From contig JAJQGP010000097.1 of NCBI GenBank assembly GCA_021200475.1, forward strand, positions 1 to 40,756: a stretch of 40,756 bases of DNA. The letters run 5' to 3'. Of this stretch, positions 12,377 to 40,756 are shown one piece after another. This DNA is from Lachnospiraceae bacterium. Lineage in GTDB: Bacteria > Bacillota > Clostridia > Lachnospirales > Lachnospiraceae. Within the stretch, counting starts at the first letter, position 1, and each line of letters opens with the position of its first letter. The translations under genes and the position numbers were made by a program. Under the pieces are notes generated by a model that made no database searches, was not told where the DNA came from, and saw only the letters and a list, made by a program, of their open reading frames with translations.

Positions 12377-12490
12377 AACCGTTCAGAACAGCATCAAAAT
12401 GAAAAGGTGCTGCGTGCCAGTGGCACGCGTTTAGCACCGACCGAAGCGAAGCTGAGACCAGGCTGTGCAACGGAGCGGTTCTGAACCGTT
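12377..12490 (+). repeat. Palindromic interspersed element, copy A
   Basis: A 114-bp element with ends AACCGTTCAGAAC and GTTCTGAACCGTT. It begins like copy B (GTTCAGAACAGCATC, then AAATGAAAA). It then has its own hairpin, GGTGCT...AGCACC enclosing CGTGCC-AGT-GGCACG, and a module with ACCGACCGAAGCGAAGC. The hairpin corresponds to the insert in copy D, with different stem bases but kept pairing. TAAAAT lies 6 bases upstream. It is 80 bases before murE. Confidence 0.75.
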
Positions 12491-12570
12491 TGGAATCAGC
12501 GGCAGGTGACTGTGCCCGCCACTGTTTCATATTTATATAAGGAAAGAATTGACAAAGGAGAACCGATGAG

Positions 12571-14076
12571 ATGAAGCTGGAAAAACTGCTGGAGCAGATA
12601 GAGTATAGATGTTTGCAGGGAACAGTTGATACGGATGTGAAGAAACTGGTAAATGATTCGCGGAAGGTCGAGGAGGGTTCTCTGTTTTTTTGTATAAAGG
12701 GAGCGGTGACGGACGGACATAAGTATGTGCCGGATGTGGTGGTGAAGGGCGCGAAGGTGCTGATCGTGCAGGATGCAGTGGAGGCGCCGGAGGATGTGAC
12801 GGTGATCCGGGTGGCGGATACGCGCTATGCGATGGCTCTGATGTCGGCGGCGTTTTTTGGCTATCCGGCGAATGAGATGCGCATTATCGGTGTGACCGGG
12901 ACGAAGGGCAAGACGACGACGACTTATATGGTAAAGTCGATTCTGGAGTCGGCCGGGTATAAGGTTGGCCTGATCGGGACGATTGAGGCGATTATCGGCG
13001 ATGAGAAGATCCCGGCGCACAATACGACGCCGGAGTCTTACACGATCCAGGAATATTTCCGCCGCATGGCGGACGCGGGCTGCCAGGTGGTGGTGATGGA
13101 GGTCTCTTCGCAGGGGCTGATGCTGGAGCGCACGGCGGGGATTCCGTTTGAAATTGGTATTTTTACAAATATCGAGCCGGATCATATCGGACCGGCGGAG
13201 CATGAAAGCTTTGAGGATTACCTGGAGTGTAAAAGCCGACTGTTTCAACAGTGCAGGTATGGGATTCTGAATGCGGATGATGCCCATCTGGAGGAGATTC
13301 TGAAAGGGCACACCTGTGAGGTGGAGACCTTTGGCCTGTCGGAACAGGCGGATGTGCGTGCAGAGAATCTGGATCTGGTATCGCGGCCGGGGTACCTGGG
13401 GATTTCGTATACGGTTTCGTGGAAAAATGAGAGTTCTTCCGGAGCGGCCGATCGGACTTCTTTTGATGTTGAGATTGACATTCCAGGTAAGTTTAGTGTA
13501 TATAATTCTCTGACAGCGATTGCGATCTGCCGTCATTTCAGGGTGGGGATCGAAGACATTCAGAAAGCACTGAAGGTGGCAAAGGTGAAGGGGCGTGTGG
13601 AGCTGGTAAAGGTTTCCGATACGTTCACGCTGATGATTGATTATGCGCACAACGCGATGGCGCTCCAGAGCCTTCTGGAGACGCTGCGCGAATATCATCC
13701 GCACCGCCTGATCAGTGTATTTGGCTGCGGGGGAAACCGCTCGAAGCTTCGCCGCTATGAGATGGGGGAAGTTTCCGGAAGGCTTGCGGATCTGACGGTG
13801 ATCACGTCGGATAATCCGCGTTTTGAGGAGCCGGAGGCGATTATCGAGGATATTGTGAGTGGCATCAGGAAGACGGATGGAACGTATGTGAAGATTACCG
13901 ACCGCAGGGAAGCGATTGCCTGGGCCATTCACCATGGAGAGCCGGGCGATATCATTGTTCTGGCGGGCAAAGGACATGAGGACTACCAGGAGATCTGCGG
14001 TGTGCAGTACCCGATGGATGAGCGGGTGCTGATCCGCGAAATTCTGGCAGAGGATGAAAAAAATGCCGGAATGTAA
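12571..14076 (+). CDS. murE: MurE, UDP-MurNAc-tripeptide synthetase (meso-DAP type motif)
   Basis: MurE adds the third amino acid to UDP-MurNAc-L-Ala-D-Glu in the cytoplasm, an ATP-dependent step of peptidoglycan synthesis. The 501-aa protein has the Mur ligase order. The N-terminal substrate domain includes VNDSRKVEEGSLFFCIKG. The ATP loop is GVTGTKGKTTT (108-118), followed by HNTTPES and VMEVSSQGL, then IDYAHN. In the C-terminal domain, DNPR (414-417) is the signature of meso-diaminopimelate rather than lysine addition. The ribosome-binding site is AAAGGAG. A second MurE or the usual dcw cluster is not nearby. priA follows after 74 bases. Confidence 0.95.
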   Translation: MKLEKLLEQIEYRCLQGTVDTDVKKLVNDSRKVEEGSLFFCIKGAVTDGHKYVPDVVVKGAKVLIVQDAVEAPEDVTVIRVADTRYAMALMSAAFFGYPANEMRIIGVTGTKGKTTTTYMVKSILESAGYKVGLIGTIEAIIGDEKIPAHNTTPESYTIQEYFRRMADAGCQVVVMEVSSQGLMLERTAGIPFEIGIFTNIEPDHIGPAEHESFEDYLECKSRLFQQCRYGILNADDAHLEEILKGHTCEVETFGLSEQADVRAENLDLVSRPGYLGISYTVSWKNESSSGAADRTSFDVEIDIPGKFSVYNSLTAIAICRHFRVGIEDIQKALKVAKVKGRVELVKVSDTFTLMIDYAHNAMALQSLLETLREYHPHRLISVFGCGGNRSKLRRYEMGEVSGRLADLTVITSDNPRFEEPEAIIEDIVSGIRKTDGTYVKITDRREAIAWAIHHGEPGDIIVLAGKGHEDYQEICGVQYPMDERVLIREILAEDEKNAGM

Positions 14077-14150
14077 CTTGCGTGTCGATACACCGGGGCG
14101 GAAGCGTTATTTGGATGTTTTTTGGACAGGATGCACGGAGAGGAAAGGAT

Positions 14151-16502
14151 ATGGATTTGTACGCGGATATCATGATTGATATCTCACACAGCAAATTGGA
14201 TCAGACATTTCAGTATCGGATTCCCCCGGAGCTGGTGGGCATTCTGGAGCCGGGAGACGTGGTGGAGCTTCCATTCGGAAACGGAAACCGGCTGAAAAAA
14301 GGATATGTACTCCGCATTTCGACAGCTCTTTCGTGTCCTCCGGAAAAGATGAAGACAATTGTCAGGTGCGTGACGGAGCTCGGCGGAGCGCAGTCGAAGC
14401 TGATTACGCTGGCGCTCTGGATGCGCGATTATTATGGCTCGACGACCGTGCAGGCGCTGCGCACGGTGCTTCCGTTTCGGGATAAGGCTGCCGCGAAAAA
14501 GAAAAAGAGTGTCCGCCTGGCGATCGATATGGAAGCAGCAAAGAAGCAGCTGGAGGAATTGCGAAAAAAGCATCAGACAGCGCGGGCGCGGCTTTTAGAG
14601 GCGCTGCTTTCAGAGCCGGTGCTTCCGCAGGAGGTCGCGACGGGGACCCTGCGCATCACGCAGCCGGTGCTGCGTGCGATGGAACAGATGGGGATCATCC
14701 GCTGCGAGTCGGAGCAGGTATATCGTACACCAGCAGTATTAGAGCAGTTGAAAATGCAGGTGAATGCGGAAAATGGAAGTGAGCAGGCGAATTTACCTGG
14801 GGAGAATTCCCAATCAGTCACAGGTTTTACTTTGACGAGGGAACAGCAAAATGCGGTGGACACGATTTGTGCGTCTCTGCGTGGAACCAAACGACATACA
14901 GAATCCATGTCTCAGTGTAAGGGAAATGTTTCCCGGCCTGGAACGAATACGGTCGCTGGCACGGAGTTCCTGATTCATGGCGCGACCGGCAGCGGCAAGA
15001 CAGCGGTCTATATGGAGCTGATCGCGGAGACATTGCGGCAGGGAAAGCAGGCGATTCTGCTGATTCCGGAGATTTCTCTGACGTATCAGAATGTCGTCCG
15101 CTTTTATCACGCGTTTGGCGACCGGATTTCGATTTTACATTCGCGGCTTTCGCAGGCCGAACGGTATGATCAGTTTGAGCGGGCGAAGGAGGGCGAGATC
15201 GATGTGATGATCGGGCCGCGCTCCGCATTGTTTACGCCGTTTGAGCGCCTGGGGCTGATCATTATTGATGAGGAGCATGAGCCTTCTTATAAGAGTGAGA
15301 CGACGCCGCGCTATGACGCGCGGGAGGTTGCGCGCAAACGAGCGGCTCTGGAGGGAGCCATTCTGGTGCTGGGCTCTGCGACCCCTTCTCTGGAATCGTA
15401 TTATGCGGCAAAACATGGAAAGAGTACCCTGCTTACGATGAATCATCGCCCGACGGGCGGGCAGCTCGCGGATGTGACCATCGTGGATATGCGCAGGGAG
15501 CTGCGGGAAGGGAACAGCTCGATTTTAAGCCGCACATTGCTTGAAAAAATCCGTTTGCACCTGGAGCAGGGGCAGCAGTGTATGCTGTTTCTCAACCGCC
15601 GGGGGTATGCGGGGTTTGTTTCCTGCCGTTCGTGCGGCCACGTGATGAAATGTCCGCACTGCGACGTGTCCCTTTCGCTTCATCAGGGAGGACGGCTGGT
15701 CTGCCATTACTGCGGCTATACCGAACGGGCAGTGAAAAAATGTCCGGTCTGCGGTTCGCCGTTTATCGGCGGATTCAAGGCGGGAACGCAGCAGATTGAG
15801 GCTGTGGTGGCTGCCGCATTCCCCGGGGTGCGGATTCTGCGGATGGACGCAGATACAACGAGGGGAAAGGATGGGCACGCGGAGATTTTGCGGGCGTTTG
15901 GTGCCCACGAGGCGGATATTCTGATTGGTACGCAGATGATTGTGAAGGGACATGATTTCCCACAGGTGGCGCTGGTTGGTGCGCTTGCTGCGGATCTGTC
16001 GCTGAATATCAGTGATTTTCGGGCCGCGGAGCGTACGTATCAGCTGCTGACGCAGGCGGCGGGCAGAGCCGGACGCGGGAAGATTCCGGGTGAGGTAGTG
16101 ATTCAGACCTACATGCCGGAACACTATGCGATCACCTGTTCAGCGGCGCAGACCTATGAGCCGTTTTACGAACAGGAGATGAGTTACCGCGCTCTTTCGG
16201 GGTACCCGCCGTCGGGCAGCCTGATGTCGGTGCACTGTGCTTCGCCGGATCAGGAGCGCCTGGCCGCCGCGGCCGGTTATCTGGCGCGTTTTGCCGGTCA
16301 GCTGGCGGAAAAGTATCATGCGGTCGTGATGGGACCTGCGGACGAAGCAATCGCGAAGATGAAGGATACCTACCGAATGGTTTTTTATATCAGGCACAAG
16401 GATTCCAAAGCCCTGACATCGATGAAAAATTACATGGAGCAGTATATTGAGATGAACAGCGGCTTTCATGATATTATGATAAATTTTGAAAGGCAGGATT
16501 AA
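14151..16502 (+). CDS. priA: PriA, primosomal replication-restart helicase
   Basis: PriA recognises stalled forks and reloads the replicative helicase. The 783-aa protein has the N-terminal DNA-binding domain (DIMIDISHSKLDQTFQYRIP). The helicase follows, with Walker A GATGSGKT (277-284), IIIDEEHEPSYKSE (DEEH at about 373), GSATPSLES and TQAAGRAGRG. Between the helicase lobes are the zinc-binding cysteines (CRSCGHVMKCPHC, CHYCGY, CPVCGS). About 50 residues of Ser/Asn/Gln-rich sequence before Walker A look like a lineage-specific insertion. The start at 14151 follows GAGAGGAAAGG and matches the conserved N-terminus; the longer frame from 14082 does not. Confidence 0.95.
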   Translation: MDLYADIMIDISHSKLDQTFQYRIPPELVGILEPGDVVELPFGNGNRLKKGYVLRISTALSCPPEKMKTIVRCVTELGGAQSKLITLALWMRDYYGSTTVQALRTVLPFRDKAAAKKKKSVRLAIDMEAAKKQLEELRKKHQTARARLLEALLSEPVLPQEVATGTLRITQPVLRAMEQMGIIRCESEQVYRTPAVLEQLKMQVNAENGSEQANLPGENSQSVTGFTLTREQQNAVDTICASLRGTKRHTESMSQCKGNVSRPGTNTVAGTEFLIHGATGSGKTAVYMELIAETLRQGKQAILLIPEISLTYQNVVRFYHAFGDRISILHSRLSQAERYDQFERAKEGEIDVMIGPRSALFTPFERLGLIIIDEEHEPSYKSETTPRYDAREVARKRAALEGAILVLGSATPSLESYYAAKHGKSTLLTMNHRPTGGQLADVTIVDMRRELREGNSSILSRTLLEKIRLHLEQGQQCMLFLNRRGYAGFVSCRSCGHVMKCPHCDVSLSLHQGGRLVCHYCGYTERAVKKCPVCGSPFIGGFKAGTQQIEAVVAAAFPGVRILRMDADTTRGKDGHAEILRAFGAHEADILIGTQMIVKGHDFPQVALVGALAADLSLNISDFRAAERTYQLLTQAAGRAGRGKIPGEVVIQTYMPEHYAITCSAAQTYEPFYEQEMSYRALSGYPPSGSLMSVHCASPDQERLAAAAGYLARFAGQLAEKYHAVVMGPADEAIAKMKDTYRMVFYIRHKDSKALTSMKNYMEQYIEMNSGFHDIMINFERQD

Positions 16503-16506
16503 AACA

Positions 16507-17022
16507 ATGGCTTTGAGACAGATTAGAATTTACGGAGATGAGAAACTGGCAAAGGCTTGCCGTCCAGTGCAGTTTGTGAGCCCGCGCACCAAACTGCTGA
16601 TCCGGGACATGCTGGATACCATGTATGAGGCGAACGGCGTCGGACTGGCCGCGCCACAGGTGGGGATTCTCAAACAGATCGTGGTGATTGATATCGGAGA
16701 CGCAGAGGGAGAAGACGCCGAGCCGGGAATCGGCTGCGGAGACGGTCCGCTTGTCATGATCAATCCGGAGATTCTGGAGACCTCCGGAGAGCAGACCGGT
16801 CAGGAGGGCTGTCTGAGTCTGCCGGGGCAGGCGGGTATGGTGACGCGTCCGGAATATGTAAAGGTAAAGGCATTTGATGAGGATATGAAGGAGTTTGAAG
16901 TGGAGGGCAGAGGCCTTCTGGCGCGCGCAATCTGCCATGAGTGTGACCATCTGCAGGGAATCATGTATGTCGAAAAGGTGGAGGGTGACCTGTTTGAGGT
17001 GACCGACGAGGAAGAAGAGTGA
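16507..17022 (+). CDS. def: Peptide deformylase
   Basis: Removes the N-formyl group from nascent proteins at the ribosome exit. All three motifs are present in the 171-aa protein: GVGLAAPQ (44-51), EGCLS (100-104) and HECDH (144-148), which supply the Cys and two His metal ligands and the Glu. A short acidic/Gly insertion (about residues 65-80) precedes the second motif. The start at 16507 lies 5 bases after priA and has an AGGCAGG site. fmt follows after 7 bases, so the enzymes that add and remove the formyl group are co-expressed, the usual order. Confidence 0.96.
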   Translation: MALRQIRIYGDEKLAKACRPVQFVSPRTKLLIRDMLDTMYEANGVGLAAPQVGILKQIVVIDIGDAEGEDAEPGIGCGDGPLVMINPEILETSGEQTGQEGCLSLPGQAGMVTRPEYVKVKAFDEDMKEFEVEGRGLLARAICHECDHLQGIMYVEKVEGDLFEVTDEEEE

Positions 17023-17029
17023 GAATGGT

Positions 17030-18076
17030 ATGCTGAAAAATGTAGTCTTTATGGGAACACCTGATTTTGCGGTGGGTACACTAAAGGCACTGATCGCGTC
17101 AGAAAAATATCAGGTACAGGCCGTTTTTTCCCAGCCGGATAAACCGAAAGGCCGCAGCGGAGCACTTCAGATGTCTCCGGTAAAAGCGGCGGCAGTGGAG
17201 GCCGGGATTCCGGTGTACCAGCCGGTAAAAATCCGGGAGCCGCAGTGGCTTGCTCTTTTGACGGAGCTGCGTCCGGATGTGATTGTGGTGGTGGCGTTCG
17301 GGCAGATCATACCCCAGGCAATCCTTGATCTGCCGGAATACGGCTGTATCAATGTCCACGCATCGCTGCTTCCGAAATACCGCGGCGCCGCGCCGATCCA
17401 GTGGGCGGTGATCAATGGGGAAAAGGAGTCCGGGGTGACCACGATGCGCATGGATGCCGGACTCGATACCGGGGATATGATTTTGCGAAAAACGGTGGAG
17501 CTGGATAAAAATGAGACAGGCGGGAGCCTGTTTGACAAGTTAAGTGTGACCGGAGCCGGATTGCTTCTGGAGACGCTGGAGGCTCTCGAAAATGGGACCG
17601 CCGGCTTTGAAAAACAGCCGGAAGTCAGTCCAACGCCTTACGCGGCGATGCTGAAAAAAGAGGATGGCCGTATCGACTGGAGCATGAGTGCGCACGCGAT
17701 CGAGTGCCGGATCCGCGGCCTGGACCCATGGCCGGGCGCCTGGACCAGATTTCACGGGAAGCTGTTGAAAATCTGGAAGGCGGAGGTCGTGGAAGAACGA
17801 CACCAGACCGCTGAAGGATATTCGCAGCCCGAGGAAGATCAGCGGAAGACGGCAGAAGATCAGCCACAGGCTGCGGCAGGCTCGGCGCAGGTTTCGTTTG
17901 CGGCGCAAAATCAGGATACCTGCGGTGTCGTATGTGCGGTTACAAAAAATGCGCTTCATGTACAGACCGGAGATGGTATCCTTTCGATTTCAGAACTACA
18001 GCCGGAAGGAAAAAAAAGGATGTCTATTGATGCATTTCTGCGCGGCTATCCGGTTAAAACCGGGGAGAATCTATAA
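17030..18076 (+). CDS. fmt: Methionyl-tRNA formyltransferase
   Basis: Formylates initiator Met-tRNA using 10-formyl-tetrahydrofolate. The 348-aa protein has the N-terminal FMGTPDFAV start, VVAFGQIIPQAIL, the active-site HASLLPKYRGAAPIQWA (His at 110), and the SGVTTMRMDAGLDTGDM stretch. The C-terminal OB domain is interrupted by a Gln/Glu/Ala-rich insertion of about 45 residues (around 250-295) that is not part of the usual fold. An A8 run (18010-18017) near the 3' end is read in frame here, in contrast to the A7 breaks in cas5c and cas8c. Confidence 0.96.
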   Translation: MLKNVVFMGTPDFAVGTLKALIASEKYQVQAVFSQPDKPKGRSGALQMSPVKAAAVEAGIPVYQPVKIREPQWLALLTELRPDVIVVVAFGQIIPQAILDLPEYGCINVHASLLPKYRGAAPIQWAVINGEKESGVTTMRMDAGLDTGDMILRKTVELDKNETGGSLFDKLSVTGAGLLLETLEALENGTAGFEKQPEVSPTPYAAMLKKEDGRIDWSMSAHAIECRIRGLDPWPGAWTRFHGKLLKIWKAEVVEERHQTAEGYSQPEEDQRKTAEDQPQAAAGSAQVSFAAQNQDTCGVVCAVTKNALHVQTGDGILSISELQPEGKKRMSIDAFLRGYPVKTGENL

Positions 18077-18222
18077 AAAGATTTGCAATAATCCATGCGG
18101 TGTGATATTCTGGATGTGAAGTGGTTGTTCATAACCAAAGCCTGGATTAAGGATCTGCTGTTCATAACAGCTGCAATGTGGAATGAAAAAGGTGGATAAA
18201 ATCAGGAGAGGAGGGCAACAAT

Positions 18223-18408
18223 ATGCCGACAAACGAAAAAGAATATAATGGTTATTTGTTTGACCAACTGACTTTGCTGGAAGATATTGAAGAAGTTGCC
18301 AAAGAAGAGGGAGCAAAAGAAACTCTGAAATTGATTGACAAAAAGCGTCGACAGGTAGAGCGAAAATTATATCAGGCGCCGCCGCTTCCTCAGGATAATG
18401 TATCATAA
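18223..18408 (+). CDS. Small hypothetical protein
   Basis: A 61-aa, highly charged, probably all-helical protein (EDIEEVAKEEGAKETLKLID, then KKRRQVERKLYQ) with a Pro-rich tail. It has an excellent ribosome-binding site (GGAGAGGAGGGCAAC), which supports expression. I recognise no family. It sits between fmt and the zinc peptidase gene and is followed by a hairpin terminator, so it may be its own transcript or the end of the fmt one. Confidence 0.6.
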   Translation: MPTNEKEYNGYLFDQLTLLEDIEEVAKEEGAKETLKLIDKKRRQVERKLYQAPPLPQDNVS

Positions 18409-18415
18409 GCATATG

Positions 18416-18440: not shown

Positions 18441-18471
18441 TAACCTTTTTTAAATATCGGAGGAGTGCTCA

Positions 18472-20522: not shown

Positions 20523-21623
20523 ATGAAAGAGAAGACCGGTGCGGCTGCGGCGGAAACGGTCGGTTCAGAGACAGCGGCGCAGGAAACGAAAACAGACATC
20601 AAGTCCCTGACCTTAGAGGAGCTTACGGCGGAAGTGATTGCGTCTGGAGAAAAAACATTTCGCGCGAAACAGCTTTATCAGTGGATGCATCAGAAGCTGG
20701 CACGCAATTATGATGAGATGACGAATCTGCCGAAGACCTTTCGGGAAAAGCTGGCCAAGGAGTATACATACACTTCGCATACGCTGGTGGAACGCCGTGT
20801 CTCAGCAGTGGATGGAACAGAGAAATATCTGTTTGAACTTTCCGATGGCAATGTGATTGAAAGCGTATTGATGCGCTATCATTTTGGAAATTCCGTCTGT
20901 ATCTCCTCTCAGGTTGGCTGCCGGATGGGCTGCCGCTTTTGCGCTTCGACCATCGGGGGACTTACGAGAAATCTTCTCCCTTCTGAAATGCTTGACCAGG
21001 TCTATGCCATCCAGCGGCTGACCGGGGAGCGCGTTTCACACCTTGTGGTCATGGGAACCGGGGAGCCGCTGGATAACTACGATCATCTGCTTCGCTTTAT
21101 CCGGCTTTTATCCGACGAAAATGGCCTGCATATCAGCCAGAGAAATATTACGGTATCGACCTGCGGACTTGCAGAAAAAATCCGCGGCCTGACACAGGAA
21201 CGGCTGCAGATCACGCTGGCGTTGTCGCTGCATGCTTCTTCGCAGGAAAAACGAAAAGAGCTGATGCCGGTCGCGTACCGGTATGAGCTGGGGGATGTGC
21301 TGGATGCCTGCCGGTATTATTTTGAACAGACCGGGAGGTGAATGACATTTGAGTACAGTCTGGTTGGAGGAGTGAATGACACCTCGAAAGACGCAGAGCA
21401 GCTTGCGAAGCTTCTGAAGGGAATGAACTGCCATATCAATCTGATACCGGTCAACCCGATCAAAGAAAGGGATTACGTACAATCTGAGCAGCGGGTGATC
21501 ACTGCATTCAAAAATAAACTTGAAAAATACGGAATAAATGTTACTATTAGGAGAGAGATGGGGCGCGATATCAGCGGCGCCTGTGGTCAGCTCCGCAAGG
21601 GGTATCTGGAGCAGGCGCAATAA
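20523..21623 (+). pseudogene. rlmN: RlmN, 23S rRNA/tRNA adenine-C2 methyltransferase, interrupted by an in-frame TGA
   Basis: RlmN is a radical-SAM enzyme that methylates A2503 of 23S rRNA and A37 of some tRNAs. The frame 20523-21341 (272 aa) holds the CxxxCxxC cluster (GCRMGCRFCAS; Cys 133, 137, 140) and GTGEPLDNYD. It stops at TGA 21339-21341. The same frame resumes at once with MTFEYSLVGGVNDTSKDAEQ and ends at 21623; this part carries the second catalytic cysteine (ACGQL, Cys 354). The family normally has TGRR-x-TFEY here, so the TGA most simply replaces a CGA arginine codon (one C-to-T change). Without the stop the protein would be 366 aa, a normal size. GGGAGG precedes the TGA and an ATG follows it, so restart is possible but the spacing is tight. 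Confidence 0.9.
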
Positions 21624-21723
21624 AATCGCGCTGTGCGCGATGGCGCCTGCGCAGGTGGTAAGGAATCTCCCGCGAGCGGGACCTTACCACAGTAAATGGA
21701 GCAGGCGCAATAAAATCGCGCTG
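21607..21723 (+). repeat. 27-bp direct repeat around a hairpin, duplicating the rlmN end
   Basis: TGGAGCAGGCGCAATAAAAT plus CGCGCTG occurs at 21607-21633 and again at 21697-21723, exactly 90 bases apart. The first copy includes the rlmN stop codon. Between them is a hairpin with a perfect 9-bp outer stem GTGGTAAGG/CCTTACCAC and an inner CCCGC/GCGGG stem. The second unit has a shortened version (TTCTTACCACAG). This looks like a tandem duplication of the gene end plus its downstream hairpin, later eroded. Confidence 0.75.
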
Positions 21724-25817: not shown

Positions 25818-25845
25818 AGCACAGCGCACAGGTATAAAATGAGGG

Positions 25846-26019
25846 TAACAGTTCAGAACAGCATCGAAATGAAAAGACAGACTGTGCAGGTTTACCTGCT
25901 AAAGGCTGTATTTTCATTTCGGGATGGGCGGAACGCCCATCAAGCCACAGACATATGACGCGTTAGCGGCATATAGCCTGCATCGCAGGCGGTCTGCGGC
26001 CTGCTGTTCTGAATAGTTA
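25846..26019 (+). repeat. Palindromic interspersed element, copy B
   Basis: A 174-bp element with ends TAACAGTTCAGAACAGC and GCTGTTCTGAATAGTTA. In order it can fold into: CGAAATGAAAA/TTTTCATTTCG enclosing GCAGGT-TT-ACCTGC; GATGGGCG-GAA-CGCCCATC; ATATGaCGC-gtta-GCGgCATAT; and GCCTGC-ATC-GCAGGC. TAAAAT (25835-25840) lies 6 bases upstream. A tail fragment of the same family (CAGTTCTGAATTGTCAC) reaches about 26084. It fills the spacer between rsgA and rpe. Copy D is the same element in the other orientation with an extra hairpin. Confidence 0.85.
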
Positions 26020-26116
26020 CAAATGAGGAATGATTCAGGAGGGCAGAGCGCAGGTCTGCGCTTCGTTTCAGTTCTGAATTGTCACACAAAAGGGATACGA
26101 TACAGGGAGAACAAAT

Positions 26117-26859: not shown

Positions 26860-26868
26860 CAAAATAGT

Positions 26869-26934
26869 ACGATTCAGAACAGCACGCCGCAGGTCTGCGT
26901 CCTGCTTCGGTCGGTGTTGTTCTGAACGGTTGAC
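26869..26934 (+). repeat. Palindromic interspersed element, short copy C
   Basis: A 66-bp member with ends ACGATTCAGAACAGC and GTTGTTCTGAACGGT. It has the inner hairpin CGCAG-GT-CTGCG and the CTTCGGTCGGTG module also seen, in opposite orientation, in copies A and D. It lies between the rpe terminator and the end of fprA, so it is in a convergent spacer. Confidence 0.65.
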
Positions 26935-28781: not shown

Positions 28782-28811
28782 GTGGGGAAAATTGCTGATT
28801 GGTATAGTTTC

Positions 28812-29067
28812 GATGCTGTTCTGAACTGTTATTAAAAATAGGTAAATATTCAGAATAGCAGGCCACAGACCGCCTTCTTCGAAGGCTATATGCCGCTAAC
28901 GCGTCATATGTCTGAGGCTTGATGGGCGTCTCCGTTTCACTTCGGTCGGTGCTAAACGATCGTCCACTGGACGATCAGCACCCGCCCATCCCGAAAAGAA
29001 AATACAGCCTTTAGCAGGTAAACCTGCACAGTCTGTCTTTTCTTTTCGATGCTGTTCTGAACTGTTA
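28812..29067 (-). repeat. Palindromic interspersed element: solo end plus copy D
   Basis: 28812-28831 is a lone 20-base end (GATGCTGTTCTGAACTGTTA). Copy D follows at 28843-29067 (225 bp) in the opposite orientation to copy B, ending in the same 20 bases at 29048-29067. Its arms match copy B closely but differ at paired positions: the CGAAATGAAAA stem has become CGAAAAGAAAA with the partner changed to match, and GCCTGC/GCAGGC has become GCCTTC/GAAGGC. It contains an added hairpin, GGTGCT...AGCACC around GATCGTCC-ACT-GGACGATC, related to copy A. It fills the spacer between two divergent genes. Confidence 0.85.
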
Positions 29068-32752: not shown

Positions 32753-32778
32753 GCATTAAACGGATTATGAGGATGATG

Positions 32779-32848: not shown

Positions 32849-35363
32849 ATTCCGTTTCCTGGCGGATGCCGCAGCCTCCGTCCAGGAGGGTCAGGTGCGG
32901 GCTGTAGTAGGGATCCCCCTTTTCCAGAAAGGCTTTCCAGCGGTTTTGGAAACGATGGATCTCTTTTTGAAAGCGTTCCTGTTTTTCCGGTGTATCTTCA
33001 TATCCACGCGATTTGGATTCATAGTGATAGAGTTCTACATTGGGGTCCATCACGATCAGATACCCTTTTTCCCGGATACGCAGACAGAGATCGACATCAT
33101 TGAGCGCGACCACGAAATTCTCGTCGAAGCCATCGATGGATTCAAAGACAGAGCGCTTTACCATCATGCAGGCTGCGGTAACCGCGCTGATGTCCTGCAC
33201 CGCCTTCAGGCGGCCAAGATAGCCGGTATCTGCGCGGCTGCAGAAGGGATGAACATGCCCGGCAAAGCCGCCGATGCCGATCACTACCCCCGCATGCTGT
33301 ACCTGTCCGTCCGCGTAATAGAGCTTGGCTCCCACTGCGGCTGTATTTTCCCGCTGACAGAATCCAAGCATTTCCCGGATCCAGAAGGGAGAGATGACTT
33401 CCGTGTCGTTGTTGAGGAATACCAGATATTCTCCGTTCGCGTGGCGGACACCAAAATTGTTGATCGCGGAGTAATTAAAGCCTCCCTCCCAGGTCACGAC
33501 CCGGAAATTCGCATGCTCACACCTCATTCGTTCATAATACGCAAATGTTTCAGGCGCTTCACTGTTGTTCTCTACGATAAGAATTTCATAATTGCAATAA
33601 TCCGTTTTGGCGAAGATGGACTGTACACAGGCGTCCAGAAGCTCCAGGTGATCCTTATTCGGAATGACGATGGTAACCAGCGGCAGGCGGGACGGAGACG
33701 CCTCTTTTACCTTCAGCCGCATGCGGTACATGATAAAAATATCGGTATATTCCACCTCCGCCTCATAACCAAGCCGCGTGTAATGCTCCGTGAGCGCCAG
33801 CTTTCCGGCGTCTATGGCGTATTGCTTGCTGTCCTGGTTGCCGGCGGTGGAGCCGCTGTAGGCGCGCCAGTGGTAGAGAATCTTCGGAATATGGCCGACG
33901 CGATCAGTCTTTTCAATACAGCGCAGGAGAAAATCATGATCCTGTGCGCCGTCGCACTGCTTCCGCAGAAGTCCCACATCGAACGCCAGTGAGGTACGTA
34001 CCATAGTCAGATGGCAGATGTAGTTGATACTCCGCAGAAAGTCCGGGTTGAAGTCCGGCTTGAAGCGGGGGTTGCTAAAATGCTTTGAGCTCTCATCGGT
34101 CAGATCTTCATCCGTGTAGATCAGATCCAGCGCCGGATTTTCGTTCAGTTTTTTTACCAATTCATAGAGCGCGTTTGGCTCCAGCAGATCGTCATGGTCG
34201 GAAAAGACCAGAAATTCGCCTTTGGCCATGCGGATTGCCGCGTTTGTATTTTCGGAGATGCCGTCATTTCTCGCAAGGCACTGCAGGCGGATCCGCGGCT
34301 CATGACCGTAGTGTTTTTTGATCAGCGCGGCTGGTTCCGGCTGTGTGCTTCCATCCGCCAGGCAGACTTCAAAATGGGAATACGTCTGCGCAAGAATCGA
34401 ATCCAGCAGCTCCCGCAGATAGCGCTCTGGCGTATTGTAGAGCGGAATGACAATGCTAAGCAGAGGCGCGTAGGAAAAGGATTCTTTTCTCTGCCTGCGC
34501 AGCTCGGTGCGGCTGACATTGTGCTGCTTGCGCCAGTTCGCGTAAGGAATATCGGTGAGTGTGCTTGCGTTTCGCAGATGCGTAAGGAATCCTTTTGGAC
34601 CTTTGCGGCGAATCTCATCCCGGAGACGGCTCGGACTGAAGCGGGTGAGCAGAAGCAGGCACCGCCCCGCACTGGTTCCCATCCAGATGAGCCGCCCTCT
34701 GGGGAGACGGAGAGATTTGTCTGTATAGGGATTCTGCATCCGGATGAGCAGGGCAGAACCCTGAAAATCGTCCATAGGCATCGTGAACGAAAATCCCCAG
34801 GAACGATCCTGGTAAAAGTCCGGATTCAGGTGCAGCGCATCCACCAGGTCAGGGCGGAGGGACCTTTTTGGCTGGATGGGTAAGAGCGTTCCGTTTTCAT
34901 CCGTGATCTGAGGAAAGCATTCCCCGGTGATATCTACAATCCAGCCGCGGATGGTAATGACATTGTCAATACATCCGCAGACGTCCAGAAAGTACTGGAT
35001 AGAGGAATCAAAATAAGCTTTTTTCAGTTTTGCCGTACTTCGTGAGAAAATCATGCGGCTGGTATTGCCGGCATGCAGCTCAATCGTCAGCTTCTGGTGT
35101 GCTTCCATATAATGTTCGATGTCTGGCACGGTGATTTGAAAACCAAGCTCAGCCTGCAGCGGAGCATAGTCAGCATGAAGACTGACAACGTCCGGGCGAG
35201 GGAGAAGGACGCATTCGGCTTCGACTGACGTGCCGGTTTCATCAAGTACCTGAAAAACAGCAGATTCCCCAGGGTCTGTGACTTTCCATCCGCGCAGGAT
35301 AAATGTGCCGCCGGGTTTCCATCCGAAGGCCTCCTGATCTATTTTTATTTTCTTTATACTCAT
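32847..35363 (-). CDS. Two-module family-2 glycosyltransferase
   Basis: An 838-aa cytoplasmic enzyme. The first 250 residues form a beta-rich part of unknown role, with several repeated patterns of the FxWxxGGTFxLRGW kind. Two GT-A modules follow. Module 1 starts PLLSIVIPLYNTPERYLREL and has FSDHDDLLEPNALYEL and YTDEDLTDE. Module 2 starts PLVTIVIPNKDHLELLDACV and has VFLNNDTEVISPFW, then GFDENFVVALNDVDLCLRI. Such double GT2 proteins build rhamnan or other repeat-unit polysaccharides. Each module keeps its acidic metal motif, so both may be active. The start at 35363 matches GGGGAGAAAACC. It is the last gene of the rfbC-wzm-wzt transcript direction. Confidence 0.88.
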   Translation of the reverse strand: MSIKKIKIDQEAFGWKPGGTFILRGWKVTDPGESAVFQVLDETGTSVEAECVLLPRPDVVSLHADYAPLQAELGFQITVPDIEHYMEAHQKLTIELHAGNTSRMIFSRSTAKLKKAYFDSSIQYFLDVCGCIDNVITIRGWIVDITGECFPQITDENGTLLPIQPKRSLRPDLVDALHLNPDFYQDRSWGFSFTMPMDDFQGSALLIRMQNPYTDKSLRLPRGRLIWMGTSAGRCLLLLTRFSPSRLRDEIRRKGPKGFLTHLRNASTLTDIPYANWRKQHNVSRTELRRQRKESFSYAPLLSIVIPLYNTPERYLRELLDSILAQTYSHFEVCLADGSTQPEPAALIKKHYGHEPRIRLQCLARNDGISENTNAAIRMAKGEFLVFSDHDDLLEPNALYELVKKLNENPALDLIYTDEDLTDESSKHFSNPRFKPDFNPDFLRSINYICHLTMVRTSLAFDVGLLRKQCDGAQDHDFLLRCIEKTDRVGHIPKILYHWRAYSGSTAGNQDSKQYAIDAGKLALTEHYTRLGYEAEVEYTDIFIMYRMRLKVKEASPSRLPLVTIVIPNKDHLELLDACVQSIFAKTDYCNYEILIVENNSEAPETFAYYERMRCEHANFRVVTWEGGFNYSAINNFGVRHANGEYLVFLNNDTEVISPFWIREMLGFCQRENTAAVGAKLYYADGQVQHAGVVIGIGGFAGHVHPFCSRADTGYLGRLKAVQDISAVTAACMMVKRSVFESIDGFDENFVVALNDVDLCLRIREKGYLIVMDPNVELYHYESKSRGYEDTPEKQERFQKEIHRFQNRWKAFLEKGDPYYSPHLTLLDGGCGIRQETE

Positions 35364-35446
35364 GATTCCGGTTTTCTCCCCAATTTGATTCGGTTTATAG
35401 CCTGGCACGTTCCCGGTTTGTATACAGGAGGTGCAAGACGTATCAG

Positions 35447-36685
35447 TTATTTCGCAGCAGATCCTTCCTGCGGCTTCAGAACAGAGGTTACGGTATCTTT
35501 CCAGCGGATCAGACGCGAATTTTTCAGTTCCTGATATTCTCTGGCAAGCCGGCCGACCTCCTTCATGGGTGCCTGACCCGGCTGGAAGGCTTCAAGCTCC
35601 ACGAGGAAGCTTCTGGCGCCCTCCGGGATTTCGGTAAGAAAGATATTCGGGTCTTCCTCCGAAAAATAAATCCAGTCGCCATTTACGCCGCCTTCACGCA
35701 GACAAAAAGCAGCCCGTTCTGTCTGAGAGACAAAGCGAAATTCTCGCAGATGTACAATGGAAGCGTGGCTGCCTGGATCCATGCGCAGTGCTTTGACCCC
35801 GTTCGGAATGGGAATCTCCTGCCGCAGGTGCCAGCAGGGTTTCTCCTGCATGTGGTAAAGAACTGAGTTTTCCTCGCGAAAGCCGTCGCCGTAATCAAAA
35901 TAAACCTGTAAATCCTCTAAAGCAAGGTGCTCCTCCGCAGGAAAAGCTCCTTCGCTGATGGCGGGATAGAGATTGCGGATAGGGACATGCCCCTGAAGGA
36001 TGTACTTCTGAAAATGGGCTTCCATCGCCGCAAAAGCGGTTTTTTCCTCTTCGGTGATCCCCATCTGTCCCATAAAATCAAAGCGCCGGAATTCTTCCCC
36101 GCGGTTTGCATTGTCTGTAAAATGCAGGATGATCCGGTACAGGAGAAAATTCACCGGGATGGGAAATTCAAAGCTCCATTCATAGTCAATCGCGGTCCAG
36201 TGTCCGTTTGAGACCAGGATGTTTTCACAGAGCAGGTCGATGTCTGTACACGGTGCGCAATCGGTACCGGCTGGCAGTGAAACCTCTCCAAAGACCCGGC
36301 GGAATTCTTCACAGGGAGAAAAAGAAGCTCCCGTGTGGAGTGAACGGATGAAACGCAGACAGTCCAGAAAATCCCGGGCGCACGCATCCATGCCTTTGGT
36401 GTGCAGGGTGAACAGCAGCTGTTCTTCCAGGGATTCCCCTTCCAGGTATTCCAGCTCGACTCCGTCTGAGGTCGGTATACAGTGGTTCCAGGAAAGCCGC
36501 GTGCCGGCAGTCAGCTCGGAAAGGGTCTGATAATGGCGGTAAAGTGCCTCGATATGCGCCTTGCCCTCCGGATAAATCGCCCTCTTGCGGACACTGCGTC
36601 TGCCGTTCTCTTCCAGAATATCGGTGCGGATCGAGAAATCCCGGCTTCTTTCGTTGGAATATTTTGAATAGATGATGTCTTTCAT
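35447..36685 (-). CDS. Kinase-like (APH/WbdD-like fold) protein
   Basis: A 412-aa protein that I cannot name, but the middle carries kinase-like motifs: LEYLEGESLEEQL (hinge-like), CTDIDLLCENILVSNGHW (catalytic-loop pattern Asp-x4-Asn) and TAIDYEWSFEFPIP (metal-binding Asp-x-Glu in place of DFG). The N-terminal part has a candidate lysine (KRAIYPEGKAH). The last 150 residues are beta-rich, possibly sugar-binding (QEIPIPNGVKALRMDPGSH; EGARSFLVELEAF). It overlaps the upstream methyltransferase by ATGA and sits in a polysaccharide export operon. This suggests phosphorylation of a glycan end, as the WbdD kinase does; that is inference. Confidence 0.6.
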   Translation of the reverse strand: MKDIIYSKYSNERSRDFSIRTDILEENGRRSVRKRAIYPEGKAHIEALYRHYQTLSELTAGTRLSWNHCIPTSDGVELEYLEGESLEEQLLFTLHTKGMDACARDFLDCLRFIRSLHTGASFSPCEEFRRVFGEVSLPAGTDCAPCTDIDLLCENILVSNGHWTAIDYEWSFEFPIPVNFLLYRIILHFTDNANRGEEFRRFDFMGQMGITEEEKTAFAAMEAHFQKYILQGHVPIRNLYPAISEGAFPAEEHLALEDLQVYFDYGDGFREENSVLYHMQEKPCWHLRQEIPIPNGVKALRMDPGSHASIVHLREFRFVSQTERAAFCLREGGVNGDWIYFSEEDPNIFLTEIPEGARSFLVELEAFQPGQAPMKEVGRLAREYQELKNSRLIRWKDTVTSVLKPQEGSAAK

Positions 36686-37623
36686 GGCTGTTCCTCCTGT
36701 TCCAGGAAAACCAAAAAGGAATTGGAAAACTGCGGGAACAGTCCGTTTTCGATGAGACTGTCAAATACCTTTCCCTCATCAAACAGCAGAAGCCGCCGCC
36801 GGTCGTAATTGTTGAGGTTGTTTTTCAGGTCTCCTTTGCGTGGAAGATAGCGGTCGGAGTAGATGGAAAACGGGAATTTATAATCCGGATAAGGGTAGTA
36901 AAAAGTAGTTTTGAAGTCTCCGGCTTCACCAAAAAGCTTTTCCAGTTCCTGTTGCGAAATTGTGCGTACACCTGAGGCGGGGGTGCGGGAATAGCCTTCC
37001 AGCCCTTCAAAGAGCCTGCCGACGTGATCTTCCGTGCAGCCGGCCCAGTACTTAAGCCCCAGCCGGTTTTCGATCGCGATCAGAATCTTTCCGCCGGGCG
37101 CCAGATGACGCGCAATGGTGGTGAGCATATGGACAAAAGGGTTTTCTGCCTTTGTATAGAGCGCAGCGTATTCGAAAACACCGATCAGGGTGATGTAGTC
37201 GTATTTTTCTGTGAGCCGTTTTTCGACATCCTCAAACGCGCCCAGCAGGATGGTGATATTGTCATAATCGCGGTGCCGCCAGGCATTGACGAGGCTGCGC
37301 TGCCGGGAAAGGTCGATACAGGTGACACTCCCGGCCTTTGCCGCGAGCGCACCGGTGACGGCTCCGCAGCCGGCGCCGATCTCGAGAACCTTATCTTCTT
37401 TGCGGATGGGCACCCAGGAGAGAAGGTTGTGGCGGATGTGGGAAAAATGATACATCACAGGCCAGCTTTTTTTCTCTGCGATTACCGCATTATAGTCTGC
37501 TTCATTCTTACAGCTTTTCGCTATCTCAAGGAGCTCCTGTTCTATGGAACCGTCGCTGTAGCGGTCTTCGCCGGAGTAGCAGGTGTCGTCTAGAATCACG
37601 CTGCCAATTTTTTCCTGCATCAT
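36682..37623 (-). CDS. Class I SAM-dependent methyltransferase
   Basis: A 313-aa Rossmann methyltransferase: motif I VLEIGAGCGAVTGALAAKAG, the acidic end of strand 2 CIDLS, then GAFEDVEKRL, DYITLIGVFEYAALY and HLAPGGKILIAIENRLGLKY. The C-terminal third has a YRTIS-like RTISQQELEKLF and aromatic segments (TTFYYPYPDYKFP). The start at 37623 follows GGAGGAATAGAC. It is coupled to the kinase-like gene by a 4-base overlap and follows wzt after 44 bases. A role in capping or decorating the exported polysaccharide is likely from context; the substrate cannot be read from sequence. Confidence 0.85.
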   Translation of the reverse strand: MMQEKIGSVILDDTCYSGEDRYSDGSIEQELLEIAKSCKNEADYNAVIAEKKSWPVMYHFSHIRHNLLSWVPIRKEDKVLEIGAGCGAVTGALAAKAGSVTCIDLSRQRSLVNAWRHRDYDNITILLGAFEDVEKRLTEKYDYITLIGVFEYAALYTKAENPFVHMLTTIARHLAPGGKILIAIENRLGLKYWAGCTEDHVGRLFEGLEGYSRTPASGVRTISQQELEKLFGEAGDFKTTFYYPYPDYKFPFSIYSDRYLPRKGDLKNNLNNYDRRRLLLFDEGKVFDSLIENGLFPQFSNSFLVFLEQEEQP

Positions 37624-37667
37624 GTCTATTCCTCCGAAGTGCATATTTTTGTGAAGGTACGGAGCAG

Positions 37668-38921
37668 TTACGAGGTCGTAACCGTCACTTCCGAATTCAT
37701 ATCATAAAAGCCAACGGTATCCTTTACCGATATGACGGTCAGATTGCAGGCATCGTAGAGCCGGTGGAAAACATGAAATTCCCCTTCCATATAGCCGGTA
37801 CAGCCGAAGGAGATCAGATAATTTCCGCCCTGCAGGTTCATTTCCTGGGTAAAATCCACTTCCGCGATGCTTCCGGCTTTTGCGGGAAGCGCGACCTTTT
37901 CGTACATGGTATTGGTACCGGTGATTTCCGTTCCCTTCATGTCCTTGATCGTAAAAGCGGCGACCGGTTCCTGTAAATCCTCATGGAAACGAATCCGCAT
38001 TTTAATCGTACAGAGCTTACCTTTTTCAACGGTATTCGTCAGCATCCCGCGACCGTCTGTCACGGCAAAATCAATGATCTCTGCCTGTTTTTCCCCGTAT
38101 TCCAGCAGGTGTGGATTGACTTCTATCGCCTGTTTCCAGGCTCCGGCACCCTCTGGGGCCGTTCCCCTGGGCGGTTCTCCTTCCTGGTGAACCAGGAGCC
38201 GTTTATACAGATCGACCATGGCTTTCGGCCGGCCCTCATCCAGCTTGGTGCCCTGGTTCAGCACGATCACGCGGTCACAGTATTTGCTGATGCTGCTCAG
38301 ATCATGGCTGACAAAGAGAATGGTTTTCCCCTGTTTTTTGAATTCTTCGAATTTGTGGTAGCATTTGGCCTGGAAAAACACATCGCCGACCGAGAGCGCC
38401 TCGTCGACGATCAGGATTTCCGGGTCGATGTTGATAGCGACCGCAAACGCCAGACGCACGAACATTCCGCTGGAATAGGTCTTTACCGGCTGGTTCACAA
38501 AGTCGCCGATGTCTGCGAAACGCAGGATCTCGGGGAGACGCTGTTCGATTTCTTCATCCGTAAAGCCGAGCATGGAGCCGTTCAGGTAGACATTCTCAAT
38601 ACCGGTGTATTCCATATTAAACCCGGCGCCCAGCTCCAGAAGTGCGGAGATGCGTCCGTTCACTGTGACGGAACCCTCCGTCGGGGTGAGGACGCCGGTG
38701 ATGATTTTGAGAATCGTGGATTTCCCGGAGCCATTGACACCGATAATTCCGACTGTTTCGCCTTCCTGCACGGTGAAACTCACCTGATCCAGCGCACGGT
38801 GTTCCCGGTAGCGTTTTTTTCGGGTCAGTCCCAGGCCTTCCCTCAGTCGGTCAGAGGGTTTGTTGTAGAGTTTGTAGACCTTGCTGACCTGATCCACGCG
38901 GATCGCAAATTTGTTATCCAA
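37668..38921 (-). CDS. wzt: Polysaccharide ABC exporter ATPase (Wzt/TagH type) with C-terminal extension
   Basis: Drives export of a lipid-linked polysaccharide with the Wzm permease. The 417-aa protein has the ABC domain at 1-250: Walker A GVNGSGKST (61-69), LLELGAGFNMEYTGIENVYL (typical of Wzt/TagH), signature YSSGMFVRLAFA, Walker B EILIVDEALSVGD and the switch VSHDLSS. Residues about 270-417 are a beta-sandwich extension (VTDGRGMLTNTVEKGKLCTI; MKGTEITGTNTMYEK) like the Wzt C-terminal domain that reads the capped end of the glycan in the O9a system. That makes a terminator-dependent exporter plausible. Confidence 0.92.
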   Translation of the reverse strand: MDNKFAIRVDQVSKVYKLYNKPSDRLREGLGLTRKKRYREHRALDQVSFTVQEGETVGIIGVNGSGKSTILKIITGVLTPTEGSVTVNGRISALLELGAGFNMEYTGIENVYLNGSMLGFTDEEIEQRLPEILRFADIGDFVNQPVKTYSSGMFVRLAFAVAINIDPEILIVDEALSVGDVFFQAKCYHKFEEFKKQGKTILFVSHDLSSISKYCDRVIVLNQGTKLDEGRPKAMVDLYKRLLVHQEGEPPRGTAPEGAGAWKQAIEVNPHLLEYGEKQAEIIDFAVTDGRGMLTNTVEKGKLCTIKMRIRFHEDLQEPVAAFTIKDMKGTEITGTNTMYEKVALPAKAGSIAEVDFTQEMNLQGGNYLISFGCTGYMEGEFHVFHRLYDACNLTVISVKDTVGFYDMNSEVTVTTS

Positions 38922-39070
38922 TTGAATTTACCTGCCTCTCTTTATTCCCGCGAAGCGATGAACCTGGCAGACACGCCTGCGGGGAATATCTGGTGCCTGG
39001 AATTGATCAGAGTGTTACAGGTCACACCCTGCCCCACAGCTCGTGCGTGGGCGGGTTATGGCCAGTGAAA

Positions 39071-39895
39071 TCAGAGTACGTCCGCAAAATGTCCCTTCAG
39101 GCGGTTGAACACCCAGCTGCCGATCGCAAAGCCTGCGGCAAGAAATACCCAGAAATAGAGCGTCCAGAGCGGGTCTTCAAAAAACCAGCGCTGACTGATC
39201 AGGGCGTTCCGGTAGCCATGAACGATATAATAGACTGGGTTCAGTCTTAAAACGGTAAGAGCAGCCGGTCCCCAGGAATAGGAGTTGAGCATGCTCTCTT
39301 CCCACATGATCGGAGTCAGCCAGACGCCGACCTGCAGCAGGATGGAGACAATCTGCGAGAGATCCCGAAAGAAGATTACCACGGAGCTGGTGATATACGC
39401 GAATGCCAGGATCAGAAGAAACAGGCAGAACGCGTAGTAGATCAGCTCCAGATAATAGACCGAAGGAAAACGGCCGTAGCATCCAAATAAAATAATCACG
39501 AAAAGGATGAAAAAACAGTGAACCACGGTGGCGGAAAGCAGCTTGACCATCGGCAGGATGTCGATGTCGAAGACCACTTTTTTCACCAGGTAGCTGTATT
39601 CCAGGAAGGAGTTGGTTGCATTTGTGAGTCCTTCCTGAAAGAAAAGCCAGGGGATGATTCCTGCCACCAGATAAAGCACAAACGGCGTCCCACCTTCCGC
39701 AGAGCTTCCCCCGCGCATGGCCACGCCAAACACAAAATAATAGACCAGAATCGTTACGATGGGCTGAATGAAGGCCCAGACGGTACCAAAATAAGACCCC
39801 GCGAATCGGTTCCGGAGGTCATTTTTGGCCATTTTTTTCAGTAAGCGTCTGTTTTTATACAGGTCCTTTGGCAGCTTAAAACGTTCTTTCTTCAT
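39071..39895 (-). CDS. wzm: Polysaccharide ABC exporter permease (Wzm/TagG type)
   Basis: The 274-aa inner-membrane partner of Wzt. It begins with an amphipathic basic start (RFKLPKDLYKNRRLLKKMAK), then NRFAGSYFGTVWAFIQPIVT and the family segment GGTPFVLYLVAGIIPWLFFQEGL. About six hydrophobic helices follow (PMVKLLSATVVHCFFILFVI, FCLFLLILAFAYITSSVVIF), with RDLSQIVSILLQVGVWLTPI and ALTVLRLNPVYYIVHGYR, all characteristic of ABC-2-type glycan exporters. The gap to wzt (149 bases) contains a GC-rich imperfect hairpin but no clear promoter. Confidence 0.93.
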   Translation of the reverse strand: MKKERFKLPKDLYKNRRLLKKMAKNDLRNRFAGSYFGTVWAFIQPIVTILVYYFVFGVAMRGGSSAEGGTPFVLYLVAGIIPWLFFQEGLTNATNSFLEYSYLVKKVVFDIDILPMVKLLSATVVHCFFILFVIILFGCYGRFPSVYYLELIYYAFCLFLLILAFAYITSSVVIFFRDLSQIVSILLQVGVWLTPIMWEESMLNSYSWGPAALTVLRLNPVYYIVHGYRNALISQRWFFEDPLWTLYFWVFLAAGFAIGSWVFNRLKGHFADVL

Positions 39896-39952
39896 ATTAT
39901 AAATACATTATCCTCTTTGGAGTCATAAAGCGGCGCGGATGAATCGATGTGC

Positions 39953-40540
39953 TCAGGACAAAGCCGGTGTGACACAATCGGAGGCGCGCTTCGCGGTATA
40001 TTCAGAGAAAGACCCCCATTTTTGATCTTTTTCAGAGAGAATCAGTTCCATGCCATCCGGAATGGGCCAGTCCACACCGATCTCAGGATCATTCCAGGCA
40101 ATACCGCCTTCGTCATTGGGATGATAAAAGTCCGTGCACTTGTAGGCAAACTCTGCCTGATCAGAAAGGACGATAAATCCATGCGCGAAATTCTTCGGAA
40201 TAAAAAACTGTTTTTTGTTTTCTGCGGAAAGCAGGACGCCAAACCACTTGCCGTAGGTCGCGGATCCCGGCCGGAGATCGACCGCCACATCAAATACTTC
40301 GCCAGCCACGACGCGCACCAGCTTGTCCTGCGGGTGGTTGATCTGAAAATGCAGACCGCGGAGTACCCCTTTCCGGGAGGAGGACTGGTTGTCCTGCACA
40401 AAGCTCATATCGATCCCCGCCGCCGCGAAGTCGTTGTAATGATAGGTTTCCATAAAATAGCCGCGGGCATCCCCGAAAACAGTCGGGGTAATGACCTTCA
40501 GGCCTTCGATTTCACAGGTTTCTACTGTTATTTTTCCCAT
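39953..40540 (-). CDS. rfbC: dTDP-4-dehydrorhamnose 3,5-epimerase
   Basis: Third enzyme of dTDP-L-rhamnose synthesis; epimerises the 4-keto sugar at C3 and C5. The 195-aa cupin protein has FGDARGYFMETY, FVQDNQSSSRKGVLRGLHFQ with the catalytic His 64, KLVRVVAGEVFDVAVDLRPG, FFIPKNFAHGFIVLSD, FAYKCTDFYHP and GIAWNDPEIGVDWP. Length is normal. It is the first gene of the - strand exporter group, with a promoter at 40614-40642 and ribosome-binding site CAGGAGATATAAA. Its leader contains a solo end of the palindromic element. The presence of rfbB and rfbC implies rhamnose in the surface polymer. Confidence 0.96.
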   Translation of the reverse strand: MGKITVETCEIEGLKVITPTVFGDARGYFMETYHYNDFAAAGIDMSFVQDNQSSSRKGVLRGLHFQINHPQDKLVRVVAGEVFDVAVDLRPGSATYGKWFGVLLSAENKKQFFIPKNFAHGFIVLSDQAEFAYKCTDFYHPNDEGGIAWNDPEIGVDWPIPDGMELILSEKDQKWGSFSEYTAKRASDCVTPALS

Positions 40541-40572
40541 TTTATATCTCCTGGTTTTTGATAGTATTGCAG

Positions 40573-40592
40573 TAACAGTTCAGAACAGCATC
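40573..40592 (+). repeat. Solo 20-base end of the palindromic element (F)
   Basis: TAACAGTTCAGAACAGCATC is identical to the first 20 bases of copies B and E but is followed by unrelated sequence. It lies inside the predicted 5' leader of rfbC, between the promoter at 40614-40642 and the start codon. Confidence 0.7.
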
Positions 40593-40613
40593 CGCCGCTG
40601 TCACACTTCCCTG

Positions 40614-40642
40614 ATTCTACCATAGTCGCAAAAATCTAACAA
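40614..40642 (-). promoter_or_regulatory. Promoter of rfbC and the exporter genes
   Basis: On the - strand, TTGTTA and TAGAAT are exactly 17 bases apart. The start point would be about 65 bases before the rfbC start codon and upstream of the solo element end at 40573-40592. Confidence 0.6.
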
Positions 40643-40670
40643 GAGGAAATCAAAGAAAGTCTTTTACTTG

Positions 40671-40699
40671 TTTACAGCTTTTGGCGGATATGCTAAAAT
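40671..40699 (+). promoter_or_regulatory. Promoter directly before element copy E
   Basis: TTTACA (40671-40676) and TAAAAT (40694-40699) are 17 bases apart, a good sigma-A promoter. The predicted start of transcription falls at the first bases of copy E, five bases after the -10 box. Confidence 0.65.
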
Positions 40700-40703
40700 G
40701 TGG

Positions 40704-40756
40704 TAACAGTTCAGAACAGCATCGAAATGAAAAGACAGACTGTGCAGGTTTACCTG
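40704..40756 (+). repeat. Palindromic interspersed element, copy E (cut by window end)
   Basis: These 53 bases are identical to the first 53 of copy B (25846-25898), from TAACAGTTCAGAACAGC through GCAGGTTTACCTG, and run off the window end. The copy is in + orientation and directly downstream of the promoter at 40671-40699. Confidence 0.85.

Follow-up and report, generated by a model that had tools for sequence, protein, structure and literature searches.

The 40,756-bp window analysed here, the whole of one contig (C175) of a draft Lachnospiraceae genome, carries copies of a short sequence family that very probably consists of non-autonomous, MITE-like insertion elements, with an 8-bp AT-rich target duplication, a cloverleaf interior, a transposase supplied in trans and a fold kept at the DNA level. 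Its 8-bp target duplications and the sites that are empty in relatives mark it as a MITE-like mobile element, one of the two natures (miniature mobile element or structured RNA) that the first-pass annotation of this DNA had put forward. Several features of MITEs were found: a length below 500 bp with terminal inverted repeats, target-site duplications (TSDs), many dispersed copies, empty sites and no transposase gene.

Copies in the window

A 17-mer end occurs nine times in the 40.8-kb window at up to three mismatches, against 0.04 occurrences expected (positions 12376, 12475, 25846, 26003, 26916, 28815, 29051, 40573 and 40704). The copies and fragments are as follows.

12376..12491, + strand: copy A; a left end, a single hairpin module of ~51 bp and a diverged right end; flanks match at 3 of 8 positions, decayed
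25837..25844, no strand: left target-site duplication of copy B, AAATGAGG, 8 of 8
25845..26020, + strand: copy B; full three-armed element, G-TAAC...GTTA-C
26021..26028, no strand: right target-site duplication of copy B, AAATGAGG, 8 of 8
26029..26084, - strand: probable decayed further copy adjoining B; end at 26068 with four mismatches
26867..26932, - strand: copy C; short 66-bp form with convergent genes on either side; flanks match at 2 of 8 positions
28808..28831, - strand: solo left end, fragment
28843..29067, - strand: copy D; 225 bp, a full element whose arm II holds one more hairpin module of ~51 bp; flanks match at 4 of 8 positions
40573..40592, + strand: solo left end, fragment
40704..40756, + strand: copy E; truncated by the contig end, leaving the first 53 bp, which are identical to B

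Every copy and solo end named in the first-pass annotation was found in place, with coordinates within a few bases, and both orientations occur, as it had reported; the probable decayed copy next to B was absent from its list. The only target duplication that can still be read in the window is that of B. At the site of copy C, the 66-bp form is present in isolate C.8_1 (G010) too.

Ends and target duplications

Copies are polar, with a left end TAACAGTTCAGAACAGCATCGAAA and, on the other strand, a right end TAACTATTCAGAACAGCAGGCC; written with the outermost base, these are (G)TAACAGTTCAGAACAGCATCGAAATGAAAAGACAG and, on the opposite strand, (G)TAACTATTCAGAACAGCAGGCCGCAG. Intact copies are bounded by inverted ends of ~17 bp, G-TAACAGTTCAG...CTGAACTGTTA-C, whose outermost bases are G-TAAC at the start and GTTA-C at the end. 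The terminal G...C is flanked by an 8-bp direct repeat, AAATGAGG in the case of copy B.

We compared the flanks of 55 end pairs from loci of the own genome, a set that includes a few doubtful pairings. Eleven matched at all eight positions and 18 at six or more, compared with 0.5% and 3.7% per pair for shuffled flanks, and 37 matched at five or fewer, i.e., had no readable TSD. The terminal G...C was outermost in 10 of the 11 exact cases. Across all loci, a set in which orthologues from different species may be represented repeatedly, pairs with own-type ends matched perfectly in 33 of 142 cases (0.35 expected) and at seven or more positions in 51 (1.34 expected); perfect matches were also seen in seven of 34 pairs with GCCATG ends (0.24 expected) and in four of 123 pairs with other or decayed ends (0.07 expected). 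A separate variant end, GACCAGTTCCGAACAGC, was noted in two copies 324 bp apart (L088:938-1262).

Exact duplications are 80% A+T, and the target consensus is a T-rich octamer with TA on each side. The left flank resembles a −10 box (TA..AT-TTTT-G), but a promoter reading was rejected as there is no −35 signal; since the right flank carries the same TA at equal distance, we read the flank motif as a target preference. The fixed 8-bp length of the duplication points to a DDE-type transposase acting in trans. Such an enzyme would recognise the element ends and make 8-bp staggered cuts in the AT-rich gaps between genes.

Empty sites and gene context

We searched all loci with the joined flanks of 123 elements and obtained seven single matches across the junction, of which five were aligned (the other two are in L197 and L205). 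At least two matching sites are empty in relatives, which answers the call of the first-pass annotation for a search of this kind: L002 (174 bp) has a counterpart in L233 with no insert, 97.9% identical over 584 bp, and L028 one in L158, 88.3% identical over 591 bp. The comparisons of L059 and L151 with L227 gave no empty site, L227 retaining a solo end, and the alignment of L159 with L115 is not clearly an empty site.

At L002:1486-1980, the copy interrupts codon 5 of a BrnT-like toxin–antitoxin gene that is intact in the relative (L233:5197-5484; Pfam PF04365, E 4.9e-29), so insertion into genes does occur. The earlier statement that no copy breaks a gene therefore holds for the gene calls in the window but not genome-wide. 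When 125 elements were placed against the calls of a simple codon-usage gene caller, 120 lay between calls and five inside called ORFs, four of these within 80 bp of the ORF start. Among the 120 intergenic elements, 48 run along and 46 against co-directional genes, 13 lie between divergent and 11 between convergent genes, and two have a gene on one side only; orientation relative to genes is random (48:46).

Copy number and distribution

The own genome (3.2 Mb, 180 contigs) holds 225 copies of the 18-base end at up to two mismatches and 74 occurrences of the 12-mer core, with none in the control for either, and the number of ends implies something like a hundred element copies. When copy B was run by BLASTN on this genome, the check proposed for finding further copies, 63 matches were returned, a second 174-bp copy identical to it among them. 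Seven contigs of the draft genome G000 (C13, C36, C46, C111, C148, C152 and C178) start within an element, with an element end ~50–95 bases from where the contig begins, which suggests that the repeat interrupted the assembly. For genomics of the genus this has a practical side: some of its genomes carry element copies of the order of a hundred, and several draft contigs end inside one.

DNA of copy B matches 22 of the 25 same-genus genomes searched (own included) and none of 16 genomes of other families. Exact ends were found in 11 of 36 genus genomes, in none of 24 others, and in two of 299 genomes sampled across the family. A covariance model (R1; 172 positions, threshold E ≤ 0.001), built and run on genomes as had been suggested, reached further, with relatives in 30 of 200 family genomes, or 29 of 199 genera with the own genus included, the weaker of these matches being candidates; six of the 30 positive genomes have at least 10 matches, with the number scored per genome limited to 14. 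In some of the positive genera the ends read GTAACAGTTCAGCCATGC. The exact end form GTAACWRTTCAGCCATGC was present in 23 of 397 genomes, with none in the control.

In a class-wide sample, seven of 391 genomes matched, four of them outside the family, where L424 and L425 alone seem convincing. L426 and L427, also outside it, were set aside: arm I alone is covered, and they resemble ordinary terminators. Searches of viral contigs gave three matches that are one identical stretch with no partner end, plus one more likewise with none; the copy search of plasmids gave no match.

Modular interiors

Elements range from 36 to 326 bp, in size classes that include 50, 62, 66, 113, 174, 225, 275 and 326 bp, several of them ~51 bp apart; the 174-bp class is the commonest (30 of 125 elements). 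Each 51-bp unit forms a hairpin tipped by CC-AGT-GG; its stems vary but still match, and its GTTTAGC..CGACCGAAGCGAAGCG tail is constant. Of 61 CCAGTGG hairpins counted, not all of them within elements, 48 have one of six stem versions. With 225 ends in the genome and size steps of ~51 bp, the description of a modular, palindromic, dispersed family is well founded. G+C content is ~50%. The longest open stretches are 39, 56 and 72 aa in pieces of 176, 226 and 327 bases; at no more than 326 bp and 72 aa, the forms are too short to hold a transposase gene.

Between relatives, the interior at a given site can differ by entire hairpin modules or be reduced to 44–50 bp. Forms of 326 bp in L024 and L222 face a 44-bp form in L230 at an orthologous site. 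L024 carries the 51-bp module in all three arms, and between L024 and L222 the stem of one module has been swapped wholesale with full compensation. The interior has also changed in place between L234 (174 bp) and L242, and in isolate C.8_1 the site of copy D (225 bp) is occupied by a 50-bp form between the same flanks (L197:533-582). The short forms look like internal deletions. In a Candidatus Enterocloster stretch (L187:1043-1200), the same GTAACAGTTCAGAACAGC end encloses hairpins that seem unrelated to those of the element, which hints at replaceable arms.

A conserved cloverleaf

Copy B is predicted to fold into a closing stem, formed by the two ends, with three arms (−94.1 kcal/mol, z −11.0); the opposite strand gives z −11.8 and copy D z −9.7. 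Other species of the genus have homologous cloverleafs, some with other closing stems (GCCATG...CATGGC) and similar loops: in related species stems vary with compensation and loops stay.

For alignment A2 (MAFFT, 18 chosen sequences) we took 12 of the 15 divergent loci (L097–L110 and L117), together with L011 and five own-type copies; L103, L104 and L107, whose ends are unreadable, were excluded. In a further count, on alignment A1, L195 and L220 were dropped for having another interior. Both-sided changes were seen in 43 of the 70 pairs of A2, and 90.0% of cells pair, compared with 78.4% after shuffling and 31%–39% with the partner slid; the structure of A2 was taken from one of its own sequences, so the slide control favours that structure.

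The very strong fold on either strand, the compensatory changes and the loops conserved across species would also suit a structured non-coding or cis-regulatory RNA (riboswitch-like or sRNA) that spread by chance duplication and whose cloverleaf works as RNA. To separate strands, we used the fact that a selected RNA strand should tolerate G-U over A-C, an A-C on one strand being a G-U on the other. On a model-fitted alignment, which is fitted to one strand, the G-U:A-C ratio was 165:47. This excess shrank to 81:68 (distinct single-step types, 34:36) in a strand-neutral count over 69 pairs common to both strands' folds, on a structure-free alignment of 55 sequences. That count used 55 of the 88 rows of alignment A4, identical sequences and lengths outside 155–182 having been dropped, and 263 of its cells are neither pairs nor G-U/A-C, partly through misalignment. 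Among 29 sequences at least 75% identical to B the ratio was 21:13, a slight G-U excess like that of the neutral count. Double Watson–Crick changes filled 352 cells over all 54 compared sequences, against 130 for single-step G-U and A-C intermediates together.

Selection on one RNA strand is thus not clearly supported, although a minor effect at the RNA level, or transcripts from both strands, may be at work. Target duplications and empty sites show insertion, copies run along genes about as often as against them (48 versus 46), and there is no Rfam match at threshold, all of which makes the functional-RNA explanation improbable. Of the suggestion that this is a structured RNA, the part that stands is a fold conserved with compensatory changes; one-strand selection is not clear, and orientation to genes is even. 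The near balance of G-U and A-C, together with random orientation, favours selection or repair at the DNA level, and folded DNA or template switching from arm to arm fits better than one functional RNA. In a MITE-like element of this sort, what maintains the cloverleaf would be selection on, or correction of, folded DNA (a hairpin or cruciform, with template switching between arms) rather than a role for one RNA strand.

MITEs are generally considered to require nothing beyond their ends. An interior fold conserved across genera exceeds that requirement and counts against the MITE-like explanation, as do the many end pairs in which no TSD can be read, the small G-U excess and the absence of a transposase with these ends from the search results. 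Conservation of this fold by compensatory change raises the question of whether transposition, or survival after it, depends on DNA folding. We tentatively suggest, as a possibility short of an even chance, that the folded interior is part of the transposition machinery: a transposase, perhaps host-encoded or lost fast, might recognise a DNA cloverleaf through its ends and conserved arm loops (for example TTTA at the tip of arm I and GGCGGAACGCC in arm II), with stems drifting only when compensated and loops staying recognisable across genera.

Possible sources of a transposase

IS66 insertion sequences have GTAA... ends and 8-bp duplications, as stated in the accessible text of PMC11946415, and the element shares both. 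It could specifically be an IS66-derived MITE mobilised by transposases of the IS66 family; this reading is one case within the MITE-like explanation and does not exclude it. Three of nine IS66 stretches from relatives (L276, L279 and L280) do show GTAA ends with exact 8-bp TSDs. Their resolved ends, however, read GTAAACGTCAAACC, GTAAATGTAAAACC or GTAAGCGTCAAAT and differ from the element after these first bases, and IS66 gave no match in the own genome (98% complete) or in the copy-bearing relatives G010, G013 and G021, which have 39, 35 and 11 BLAST matches to the element. IS66 was found in 13 of the 37 relatives' genomes searched, and its presence does not track copy number. With a different sequence after GTAA, no transposase gene in the element and no IS66 match in its host, we regard descent from IS66 as conceivable but rather doubtful.

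A search for a transposase with matching ends had also been proposed; none was seen, either in the IS66 search of the own genome or in end-pair scans of the loci. No facing pair of ends 420–8000 bp apart with a TSD of 7/8 was present in 424 loci (1.80 Mb), where most ends have <3 kb of inward sequence. This makes the scan for an autonomous copy a weak one, at least 3 kb of inward sequence being available at 180 of 539 distinct ends (434 loci, 1.83 Mb). The 65 exact ends of the own genome gave no facing pair 0.4–5 kb apart. Two candidates were rejected: an end pair in L197, whose flanks match at 6/8, was judged a chance match, and a 2.3-kb pair in G268 came apart, as one end has a closer partner (173 bp, TSD 8/8), which leaves the other single. 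The 8-bp duplication and the shared ends (GTAACNNTTCAG) together make a precise bait for the missing transposase.

Relation to described families

REP and BIME sequences are dispersed extragenic palindromes that form clusters of modules, and the element is likewise intergenic, palindromic, dispersed and modular inside. To our knowledge, REP elements are not expected to create target duplications, whereas 8-bp TSDs are clear here and full inverted termini are present; REP/BIME-type palindromes moved by a RAYT (Y1) transposase are accordingly a most unlikely explanation.

The first-pass annotation could not assign the family to a described class, and this is borne out: Rfam 15 gave no match at gathering threshold over the window, and no description of the element was found among the papers listed by searches of the open-licence literature or in the accessible text of PMC5171806. 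A lax Rfam search of eight loci returned four matches, all below gathering. One of them, mir-1954 (28.4 bits; gathering 99), overlaps an element in L108 and appears to be a hairpin that matches by chance.

Bacterial MITEs, as characterised in the accessible text of PMC10969869, are <500 bp long, with inverted ends, direct repeats, AT-rich intergenic targets and a foldable transcript, and are typically AT-rich themselves. The element is alike in all of the former respects and unlike in having ~50% G+C and an interior conserved by structure between species.

Likened by description, this is a new, structurally conserved MITE-like family that appears nearest in style to pneumococcal BOX. According to the accessible text of PMC3049150, BOX elements of Streptococcus pneumoniae are modular, with a variable number of modules (67–637 bp; 125 elements in one genome), inverted ends, target duplications and a predicted stem–loop fold. 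The resemblance would lie in variable internal modules between fixed ends, the element growing in ~51-bp steps, and is an analogy of design, not membership. BOX belongs to another organism; the element, unlike it, is a three-armed cloverleaf common to several genera, with compensatory stems and modules nested in the arms.

Other features of the window

A type I-C CRISPR-Cas locus occupies window positions 522-7460.

522-1904: Cas8c-like, below model cut-off
2277-3344: Cas7
3292-3999: Cas4
3900-5012: Cas1
5500-7460: CRISPR array, ~30 repeats of GTTGTTGCCCCTGCGGGGGCATGACTTGAAAC

A 32-bp direct repeat, GTATCTGGAGCAGGCGCAATAAAATCGCGCTG, occurs twice at 21602-21723, 90 bp apart and 94% alike.
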